Shown here piece by piece: positions 26,542-28,183 of a stretch of DNA of 64,000 bases (positions are counted from its first letter, which is position 1; every line of letters starts with the position of its first letter). Position numbers and translations under genes: made by a program. Under the pieces are notes generated by a model. The model ran no database searches and was not told the DNA's origin. It saw only the letters and a program-made list of their open reading frames with translations. Source of the stretch: an uncultured Litoreibacter sp. (GTDB lineage Bacteria > Pseudomonadota > Alphaproteobacteria > Rhodobacterales > Rhodobacteraceae); NCBI GenBank assembly GCA_947494435.1, contig CANLUY010000002.1, forward strand, positions 124,001-188,000, written 5' to 3'.

Positions 26542-27156
26542 TTATTTTCTTGAACGATAACCGAGCAATCCGATGCTACCCAGACCAAAAACTAGAAATA
26601 ACACCGATGCTGGCAATGGAACTGGCGTGGGGTTTTCATTATTTCGGATAACCGAAAAATTTCGAACAAAACTGTCCCAGGTGGCGTAGCCTTCGCCAGC
26701 ACGGAATTCGAAGGTTGGTGCGCCACCAAACACAGAGAGTGTTACTTTGTCTCCAACTGCGGTGCCACCTTTCATCGAAAAGTCACCCCATGAACCTGAA
26801 CCATCTCCGGCCCCGAGCGTGAAATCGCTCCCGCCTAAGGTTCCAAAAGCTCCTGTGCATGAATATGTGCCAATGGTGCACATGTTTAACGGTCCAGAAC
26901 TTCCGTCAAATTCTGCAGTTACTGAAACCTCATCTCCAACAGTGAATCGTTCGTCTGGCTTCGTTATGCCCCAAGTGTCATCTTCGACGTTAAGGAATTC
27001 GCCCTCAGCTTGAAGGTCGAAGTCCGCATTGTATGTCGACACGTCCGTAAAGCCGATTGAATCTAGTCGCAGCACAACGTCCAAGGTGCTGATTGATGCA
27101 GCTGAAGATGCGCCAGCAAGGGTGCAACACGTAAGCGTTGTGAAAAATCTAAGCAT
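26542..27156 (-). CDS. VPLPA-CTERM sorting domain protein (second copy type)
   Basis: This 204-residue secreted protein has a short signal peptide (MLRFFTTLTCCTLAGASSAA, cleavage near residue 20). The beta-rich body is rich in G, D, S and T. The C-terminal sorting signal is VPLPA at about 180, a transmembrane helix (SVLFLVFGLGSIGLLGY) and RSRK. The tail is the same type as in the gene at 17793, but the bodies are not evidently similar. There is no adjacent regulator or exosortase gene. Function is unknown; surface or matrix association is expected. Confidence 0.85.
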   Translation of the reverse strand: MLRFFTTLTCCTLAGASSAASISTLDVVLRLDSIGFTDVSTYNADFDLQAEGEFLNVEDDTWGITKPDERFTVGDEVSVTAEFDGSSGPLNMCTIGTYSCTGAFGTLGGSDFTLGAGDGSGSWGDFSMKGGTAVGDKVTLSVFGGAPTFEFRAGEGYATWDSFVRNFSVIRNNENPTPVPLPASVLFLVFGLGSIGLLGYRSRK

Positions 27157-27261: not shown

Positions 27262-27451
27262 CCGCGCATCTTGCCTGCTAGATACGTAACAGCGCGGTTG
27301 TCAGTGTGTCGCCCAGCGTCCACGAAAGCCGCCGTTTAATGGCCAAGATGTGCCCTTCGTTGATTGATCAATACCTTCTTCGCCTTTCAGGCGGATGCTA
27401 AGGTGCGCGCCGCGACGCATCCGGGAATCAACGGACAGAGACATTTAAGGC
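27262..27451. other. Non-coding spacer beyond the CcsR-like array
   Basis: No gene, clear hairpin or repeat was recognised here. The minus-strand transcript from the DUF1127 locus should end at the U-rich tract at 27453-27458, so this stretch probably lies outside it. Confidence 0.35.
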
Positions 27452-27492
27452 ATAAAAAACGGTGGTGCCGGGAGGAGGTGGCACCACCGTTC
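27452..27492 (-). ncRNA. CcsR-like small RNA hairpin 4 (with terminator)
   Basis: On the minus strand ACGGTGGTGCC pairs perfectly with GGCACCACCGT around the loop ACCTCCTCCC, and six U follow. It carries the exact CCUCCUCCC loop motif of Rhodobacter CcsR (cuckoo family) RNAs and also forms a rho-independent terminator for the whole locus. Boundaries are those of the visible hairpin, not mapped ends. Confidence 0.75.
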
Positions 27493-27501
27493 TTATTGTT
27501 A

Positions 27502-27536
27502 CGATCTAACCTCAGGGAGGAGGTTGGGTTAGACCG
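27502..27536 (-). ncRNA. CcsR-like small RNA hairpin 3
   Basis: On the minus strand TCTAACC pairs with GGTTAGA, and outer CG pairs extend the stem past one mismatch. The loop contains CCTCCTCCC. It is third in a run of four hairpins sharing this anti-Shine-Dalgarno-like loop. Confidence 0.7.
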
Positions 27537-27541
27537 TTAGG

Positions 27542-27582
27542 TGCGTCGCGGCCCTCGGGAGGAGGTGAGGGGTGGCGTCGCA
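27542..27582 (-). ncRNA. CcsR-like small RNA hairpin 2
   Basis: Read on the minus strand, outer TGCG/CGCA pairs and inner GC-rich segments form a stem with a few mismatches around a loop containing CCTCCTCCC. The stem sequence differs from hairpins 3 and 4, but the loop is identical, so the loop is the conserved element. Confidence 0.65.
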
Positions 27583-27586
27583 GGTC

Positions 27587-27629
27587 TTGCGGTGGGGCAT
27601 CAATCGGGAGGAAATCGGACCCAGCGCAA
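27587..27629 (-). ncRNA. CcsR-like small RNA hairpin 1 (shortened loop motif)
   Basis: The stem TTGCG..TGGG pairs with CCCA..CGCAA with one internal mismatch. The loop, read on the minus strand, has TTTCCTCCCG, i.e. CCUCCC rather than the full CCUCCUCCC. It lies just after the DUF1127 stop codon and completes a set of four, the number found in Rhodobacter sphaeroides. Confidence 0.55.
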
Positions 27630-27636
27630 ATCTCAA

Positions 27637-27843
27637 TTAGGCAGTGTAGGCTGCCTCATAAGCGACACGCTTGATTTCAGAGCGGTGAATGCCCAGATCA
27701 GCGAGTTCGCGGCCCGACAGAGCGTTCAATTCGTTGAACGTTGTGCGGTATGTTTGTGCACGACGGCTGCGCTCGCCCAATTCGGCGAAGAAGCCACGGA
27801 TGCGGTCAGCAAGGCCGACATTGATTGTAGAAGTATAAGACAT
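27637..27843 (-). CDS. ccaF1: DUF1127 small RNA-binding-type protein (CcaF1-like)
   Basis: This 68-residue protein has a C-terminal DUF1127 domain (TTFNELNALSGRELADLGIHRSEIKRVAYEAAY) and an arginine-rich middle (RIRGFFAELGERSRRAQTYR). SD GAGGA lies eight bases before the ATG. In Rhodobacter sphaeroides the DUF1127 protein CcaF1 (RSP_6037) is co-transcribed with four CcsR small RNAs and affects their maturation (recalled). The same order is seen here with four CCUCC-loop hairpins downstream. A candidate stress-sigma promoter lies upstream at 27920-27947. Confidence 0.85.
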   Translation of the reverse strand: MSYTSTINVGLADRIRGFFAELGERSRRAQTYRTTFNELNALSGRELADLGIHRSEIKRVAYEAAYTA

Positions 27844-27919
27844 TTACTCGTCCTCTTTCGGTTGTGCTGGCGTGGCGGGCGGTCCCGGGTGCCAGCGGGT
27901 ATCGTTCTGTTGTGATCAA

Positions 27920-27947
27920 TATGTAGGACAATGCTGCGATGCCGCAA
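27920..27947 (-). promoter_or_regulatory. Candidate promoter of the DUF1127/CcsR-like locus
   Basis: On the minus strand TTGCGG (27942-27947, within CTCTTGCGG) is followed after 15-16 bases by CTACAT/TACATA (27920-27926). The pair sits about 80 bp upstream of the DUF1127 ATG. The CTTG-type -35 fits RpoHI/RpoHII promoters that drive the Rhodobacter locus, but a sigma-70 promoter cannot be excluded by eye. Confidence 0.45.
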
Positions 27948-28183
27948 GAGGGTTGTCTGCAATGCTGCTATGCAGCAATTGCATGGCTTAAGTAACTGTT
28001 TTTGTTTGTTAACATCACATAAATTTTACCGCTTGATCAGCGAATTCCTGCCGGATTTGTCATCATTTCGCCATCAGTATGTGCGGTCGGCGGAAACTGT
28101 CGCATGAGAAGGGCGCAAATGGGGCTTGTGCTTTATCCGTGCGCCCTACAGTTAAGCGTCAGGGCTAAATTAGGGGCAGTTTT
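27948..28183. other. Divergent upstream region, DUF1127 / mrp
   Basis: This AT-richer spacer should hold the mrp promoter. Around 27958-27980 there is an imperfect repeat of TGCAATGCTGC/TGCAGCAATTGCA type. No clear -35/-10 pair for mrp was picked and no gene was seen. Confidence 0.35.

Follow-up and report, generated by a model that had tools for sequence, protein, structure and literature searches.

A DUF1127 gene followed by a hairpin array

The window analysed here, a stretch of 64 kb (C2:124001-188000) from a 12-contig genome of 3.89 Mb, encompasses a short minus-strand gene for a CcaF1-like DUF1127 protein that is directly followed by four consecutive hairpins (Table 1). This gene order, which the initial annotation had read from the letters, is confirmed by the PF06568 match and by the fold, as are the CCUCC loops (CCUCCUCCC in three hairpins and CCUCCC in one, all unpaired in the fold) and the perfect stem with a T run in the last hairpin. 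Among the matches listed, those closest to the DUF1127 protein are Litoreibacter records (six loci, 62-72% identity), and the genome contains four DUF1127 genes in total. Downstream of the array, a gene for a PEP-CTERM-type protein (PF07589) occupies window positions 26542-27156 on the minus strand.

Table 1. Features of the DUF1127-array locus (positions in the window; strand "." for palindromic boxes)
Feature	Position	Strand	Basis
LsrB-type box TGCA-N6-GCAT (TGCAATTGCTGCAT), overlapping box 1	27970-27983	-	sequence motif
PhaR-like box 1, TGCTGCATAGCAGCA read on minus strand	27963-27977	.	0 mismatches; matrix 17.5, rank 1/63,980
PhaR-like box 2, TGCGGCATCGCAGCA read on minus strand	27932-27946	.	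1 mismatch; matrix 15.1, rank 2/63,980
putative -35, CTTGCGG	27942-27948	-	read from sequence; TTG invariant in 45 aligned promoters
putative -10, ACATAT, N17 after -35	27919-27924	-	read from sequence
DUF1127 gene, CcaF1-like, 68 aa	27637-27843	-	PF06568, E 2.5e-11
hairpin H1, imperfect stem, shortened loop motif CCUCCC (CCTCCC, unpaired, at 27606-27611)	27587-27629	-	fold
ar14 sRNA (RF02344), hairpins H2-H4	27454-27587	-	60.5 bits, gathering cut-off 58.8
hairpin H2, loop CCUCCUCCC, inside ar14 match (CCTCCTCCC, unpaired, at 27557-27565)	27542-27582	-	fold
hairpin H3, loop CCUCCUCCC, inside ar14 match (CCTCCTCCC, unpaired, at 27515-27523)	27501-27537	-	fold
hairpin H4, loop CCUCCUCCC, perfect stem, then T run, Rho-independent terminator (CCTCCTCCC, unpaired, at 27470-27478)	27455-27494	-	fold

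The hairpins of the window array are spaced by 42-49 nt, and the region 27445-27640 folds with -72.9 kcal/mol against a mean of -44.5 kcal/mol for shuffled sequences (z -7.8; none of 200 shuffles was as good). All three occurrences of CCTCCTCCC in the 64 kb window fall within the array, where 0.5 would be expected in the window as a whole, and three were reached by one shuffle in 100. In an alignment of 18 arrays (17 arrays of the genus and a DUF1127-less orphan array), the stems diverge and the loop motifs are conserved, with 8 of the 16 predicted pairs changed on both sides and pairing retained; compensatory changes are seen in relatives for H4. Such conserved loops on variable but compensated stems argue against the reading of the hairpins as a decaying series of 3' UTR or terminator elements of the DUF1127 mRNA that have no trans-acting role, as do the match to the ar14 model above its cut-off and the retention of arrays in two genomes that lack PhaR. 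We give this reading hardly any credence, even if the loop motif of H1 is shortened and four loci (L046, L061, L083 and L137) keep the promoter module and the DUF1127 gene with no CCTCCTCCC within the stretch scanned.

Relationship to the ar14 and CcsR RNAs

Hairpins H2-H4 pass the curated cut-off of the ar14 model, albeit narrowly (Table 1), with an E value of 1.7e-8 over the window, and display the traits of this family, namely, three hairpins with divergent stems in which CCUCCUCCC is unpaired. The array thereby withstands the covariance search that had been named as a refuting check. The CcsR family invoked in the initial annotation fares differently: the array scores 24.2 bits with CcsR1 (RF02791), for which the cut-off is 65.3, and also misses the cut-off for ar7 (27.2 bits vs 60). 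The Rfam CcsR1 model itself contains two CCUCCUCCC hairpins, and RS0680a of R. sphaeroides is described as two stem loops with the motif in each (PMC3927594). Given that the CcsR RNAs have two hairpins each, the array, with four hairpins in total, is not the full four-member CcsR1-4 array that had been proposed, and membership in CcsR1 is ruled out by the score together with the hairpin count. In Cereibacter johrii, which is closely related to R. sphaeroides, there are eight motifs, arranged in four close pairs at locus L044; L042 also has eight, whereas L043 and L053 have twelve, likewise paired.

The assignment to the CcaF1/CcsR class of loci does stand, in the sense that the DUF1127 gene lies directly upstream of CCUCCUCCC-loop hairpins, as in the "CIN1 locus" of the cuckoo RNAs (reportedly Reinkensmeier and Giegerich 2015), where, according to PMC10253847, CcsR-like sRNAs accompany short DUF1127 genes. 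Neither the RNA nor the DUF1127 gene that goes with it is of a new kind. The succession of a DUF1127 gene, CCUCCUCCC RNAs and a terminator is shared with CcaF1-CcsR1-4 of R. sphaeroides (PMC10253847, PMC8307010), although the CcsR RNAs comprise two hairpins each and the window array four in all. The ar14 family is that of S. meliloti NfeR1, which is described as a transcript of 123 nt from a promoter of its own; NfeR1 likewise forms three consecutive hairpins with CCUCCUCCC loops, and its three anti-Shine-Dalgarno motifs are redundant on target mRNAs (PMC10746234). The window locus differs from NfeR1, which is repressed by NtrC, in the DUF1127 gene and the additional hairpin that precede the ar14 part and in putative repressor sites that resemble those of PhaR. 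The SmelA075 and SmelA099 models of Rhizobiales, with three and four hairpins, respectively, also combine CCUCCUCCC loops with variable stems, and since SmelA099 has four, the four-hairpin form is already described (PMC3927594). The window locus differs from the description of these models, which come from another bacterial order, in its DUF1127 gene and its PhaR-like boxes: a text search of PMC3927594 found no mention of DUF1127, and PhaR does not occur in the passages considered.

We suspect that gene and array are transcribed as one unit, in which a CcaF1-like DUF1127 message carries four anti-Shine-Dalgarno hairpins at its 3' side; the last three of these would constitute an ar14 sRNA ending in the terminator. 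By homology to CcaF1-CcsR, the transcript would be processed, and the exposed CCUCCUCCC loops would pair with the ribosome binding sites of target mRNAs and block them, as in the case of NfeR1 and CcsR.

Overlapping sites in the promoter

Upstream of the DUF1127 gene, there are two TGC-rich palindromes with starts 31 bp apart (boxes 1 and 2 in Table 1), which the initial annotation had passed over and the second of which overlies the putative -35 and the spacer. Both resemble the sites of PhaR, as scored with a matrix that was derived exclusively from S. meliloti, namely, from 18 sites in promoters efficiently bound by His6-PhaR (Table 3, PMC12542648); the training sites score 13.5-26.5, and the lowest of these values served as the threshold. 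A palindromic site of the YGCRNYGCR type is present in the promoter, with box 1 departing from it at one centre base. The box pattern with at most one mismatch occurs at two sites in the window against 0.34 expected, but two of 100 shuffles also reach two, so that this test is weak alone. In the whole genome, with up to two mismatches, there are 332 matches to the pattern and 131 to the reversed pattern; because the two boxes at phaP are absent among the matches listed, no genome-wide rank was taken from these counts.

The putative core, CTTGCGG-N17-ACATAT, can be aligned with the promoter of the CcaF1-CcsR loci of Cereibacter and is likewise similar to CTTAGAC-N17-CTATAT, the sigma70 signature found at the ar14 gene in S. 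meliloti, and the promoter may be RpoH- or sigma70-dependent. The R. sphaeroides ccaF1-CcsR promoter is an RpoHI/RpoHII promoter (PMC10253847, PMC8307010), which favours the account of the window locus as a conventional stress-RNA locus of the CcsR/ar14 kind, driven by RpoH, a LysR-type activator or both, with the boxes belonging to the activator/sigma promoter and PhaR playing no role. We consider this account rather unlikely.

Box 1 overlaps a TGCA-N6-GCAT motif. In the S. meliloti ar14 promoter, the same motif, at -72 to -60, is that of LsrB, an indispensable activator at the NfeR1 promoter (PMC10746234). As in NfeR1, the motif of the window is found upstream of the promoter, even though here it precedes the DUF1127 gene; it falls outside the Rfam definition of ar14 and has three further occurrences in the window. 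In an alignment of 45 promoters selected with box 1 at 0-3 mismatches (A1), TGC and GCAT are invariant (TGC-N7-GCAT in 45/45, TGCA-N6-GCAT in 41/45), and the centre of box 1 is ATA or ATG in every one, the centre usual in S. meliloti PhaR sites being R-N-Y (Table 3, PMC12542648). Because the invariant TGC-N7-GCAT matches the LsrB motif, we read the ATA/ATG centre as the GCAT half-site of an activator. Box 1 as simply a PhaR site was rejected in view of this centre and of the survival of TGC-N7-GCAT in genomes without PhaR; a composite of two overlapping sites, one PhaR-like and one for an activator, fits the sequence better. The same centre, being better suited to the GCAT of an LsrB-type box than to PhaR, counts in favour of the stress-RNA account.

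Our preferred reading, by a modest preference, is that of an anti-Shine-Dalgarno sRNA array under LysR-type activation and PhaR repression, where we infer both the binders and the sign of control from the sites and their precedents. The promoter would act as a switch with two inputs: TGCA-N6-GCAT, immediately upstream of the -35, would be the site of an LsrB-like activator of the LysR type, whereas the PHB-binding repressor PhaR would occupy box 1, over the right half-site of the activator, and box 2, over the -35 and the spacer. PHB granules would sequester PhaR, so that the array would be expressed, and without PHB it would be off, by analogy with the action of PhaR on MmgR. MmgR (ar8) is a 77-nt sRNA of PHB control in S. 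meliloti for which repression by PhaR (AniA) is experimentally documented (PMC12542648, PMC8401924); a dyad between -35 and -10 reportedly underlies its regulation by NtrC and AniA (PMC8401924). At mmgR, the site CAATTGTGCACCGCAGCATTA is similar to box 2 as seen in the genus, for example, TGTTGCAGCGCAGCA (PMC12542648); unlike MmgR, the window RNA belongs to another family, and its control by PhaR is predicted.

A different repressor is suggested by NfeR1 of S. meliloti, where an NtrC site, TGC-N11-GCA, lies beside the LsrB box and NtrC represses NfeR1 and outcompetes LsrB (PMC10746234). The pattern TGC-N11-GCA is readable in the window promoter as well, and TGCATAGCAGCATTGCA is present in the window. 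Nevertheless, NtrC in place of PhaR appears highly improbable to us: the second GCA of this reading is not conserved in the promoter alignment, and NtrC accounts neither for the sharing of the sites with phaP and phaR nor for the pattern in PhaR-less genomes.

PhaR-like boxes across genomes and at PHB genes

The association of the boxes with the array holds in all genomes of the genus analysed. When the main ar14 match of each of 19 genomes was taken, the window included, all 19 of these chromosomal-type loci had a site of at least 13.5 within 600 bp upstream, compared with one of 75 control stretches drawn from these loci, and in all 19 a DUF1127-like ORF lies between the box and the array (17 by pattern, two more by inspection). 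The stress-RNA account leaves this result unexplained. For the single ar14 match obtained in a different family (G260, 35.7 bits), no box was found within two mismatches.

In the broader set of at least 57 related DUF1127 loci in named genomes, 30 of the 57 listed have a site of at least 13.5 within a distance of 300 bp, compared with 3 of 767 controls, and 27 fall below. Values under the threshold were obtained for all six Pseudotabrizicola loci (9.1-12.5), for Cereibacter johrii (6.5), C. changlensis (4.7) and, just under 13.5, C. ovatus, and for three of the five Gemmobacter loci (10.2-12.3), the other two of which pass; three Limimaricola loci and L074, which are without the module, score -3.1 to 2.9. 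The phaR gene is present in 35 of the 37 tested genomes with DUF1127 loci, so the low scores do not generally result from its absence. The low values in Cereibacter, Pseudotabrizicola and some Gemmobacter, despite phaR where tested, are what the stress-RNA account would lead one to expect; the window boxes, unlike those of the Cereibacter loci, are strong.

The genome contains two strong ar14 matches, the window array and a second array at G000:C3:35927-36055 (2928-3056 of L012) that, with 56.7 bits, is just under the cut-off and has no DUF1127 gene in front. The second array resides on a plasmid-like contig of 93 kb, in the vicinity of SNase, SRAP, DUF4942 and ArdC genes; in a search for relatives, neither array was matched in the plasmid collection. 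Directly before the second array, there are twin PhaR-like boxes (matrix 24.3 and 20.1), and its own TGCA-N6-GCAT, TGCAAGTCACGCAT, is at the corresponding place. In the same genome, boxes are found at phaP (23.1 and 14.3), where TGCA-N6-GCAT is absent from the 130 bp examined, and at the start of phaR (17.3; gene at G000:C2:1223386-1223568, E 5.6e-28). When phaR loci were examined in 30 genomes of the family, a site at or above 13.5 was present in the upstream 1 kb of 22, and 14 show a pair of boxes, each with no more than one mismatch, at a distance of 26-30 bp. Ahead of phaR, the 3' UTR of phaP contains a CCTCCTCCC-loop hairpin (G000:C2:1223735-1223743, L025), and similar hairpins (with at least TCCTCCC) were detected by folding in 11 of the 30 phaR loci examined, the source genome included, although for L104, which is among these 11, the local fold did not give such a hairpin. 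Repression by PhaR would accommodate the twin boxes at phaP and at the DUF1127-less array and the site at phaR, all of which the stress-RNA account leaves unexplained.

Within the family, PhaR is found in 191 of 198 genomes. Of the seven without it, strong promoter matches were obtained for G098 (84% complete) and G166 (71%), in which the lack may merely reflect incompleteness; G033, G090 and G136 have no promoter match at 0.01, and the complete G150 and G003 have weak matches. These two complete genomes retain the array, with eight and three exact motifs, respectively, along with the DUF1127 gene, a recognisable core and TGC-N7-GCAT, whereas TGCTGC in box 1 and GCAGCA in box 2 are altered, a selective change that the stress-RNA account does not explain. 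The pattern supports a role of PhaR at the boxes but rests on two informative genomes, with no correction for phylogeny.

The matrix scores of the promoters are less clear-cut. The two complete PhaR-less modules score -0.8 and 4.8 compared with 4.7-20.1 in A1, and the value for L145 (4.8) is no lower than that of the weakest A1 promoter (L053, 4.7); when the scan covers 300 bp, the best values of L144 and L145 are 4.1 and 9.2. Six further loci were scored: the DUF1127 promoter of the PhaR-bearing G079 (1.2), the promoter of the DUF1127-less array in the PhaR-bearing G023 (5.7), G058 (9.1), G069 (14.7), G151 (19.1) and the DUF1127-less array of G035 (L172, 19.3). The low values of G079 and G023 fit the stress-RNA account. 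With the promoter model, a match weaker than E 1e-6 or no match at all was obtained for five of the seven PhaR-less and 32 of the 191 PhaR-bearing genomes; this tally carries little weight because phylogeny confounds it, as none of the 16 PhaR-bearing genomes with a divergent PhaR (over 105 bits) yields a match at 1e-6.

If PhaR does repress the array, the window locus could be part of one carbon-storage regulon, in which PhaR would control the DUF1127-ar14 array, the plasmid-like DUF1127-less array and phaP with its CCUCCUCCC hairpin in the 3' UTR, would compete with an LsrB-type redox activator at overlapping sites, and the translation of many mRNAs would be throttled in step with PHB granules; we regard this wider scheme as tentative, with somewhat more doubt than confidence. 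The new element is the promoter with its PhaR-like sites, through which the array may respond to carbon storage in addition to stress. This class of RNAs is known for regulation in stress or nitrogen metabolism and would become tied, within this Rhodobacteraceae branch, to the storage of polymer, and the MmgR case would widen from one sRNA to a regulon that includes a phasin 3' UTR RNA. The weakness of the boxes in the Cereibacter loci could explain why a link to PhaR would not stand out in R. sphaeroides. The literature searched yielded no description of ar14 promoters with PhaR-like sites, of a box-bearing orphan array or of the phaP 3' UTR hairpin, nor any paper that combines Roseobacter PhaR, polyhydroxybutyrate and a small RNA, which does not establish priority; in text searches, "sRNA", "DUF1127" and "ar14" were absent from PMC12542648 and "PhaR" from PMC10746234.

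The arrays L166 (G023) and L172 (G035), which have no recognised DUF1127 ORF, lie directly behind a promoter of the same kind. One DUF1127 paralogue of the source genome (G000:C1:2021597-2021689, L023) adjoins a LysR gene on the opposite strand; this gene was considered as a candidate for LsrB and rejected, its nearest solved relative being LrhA.
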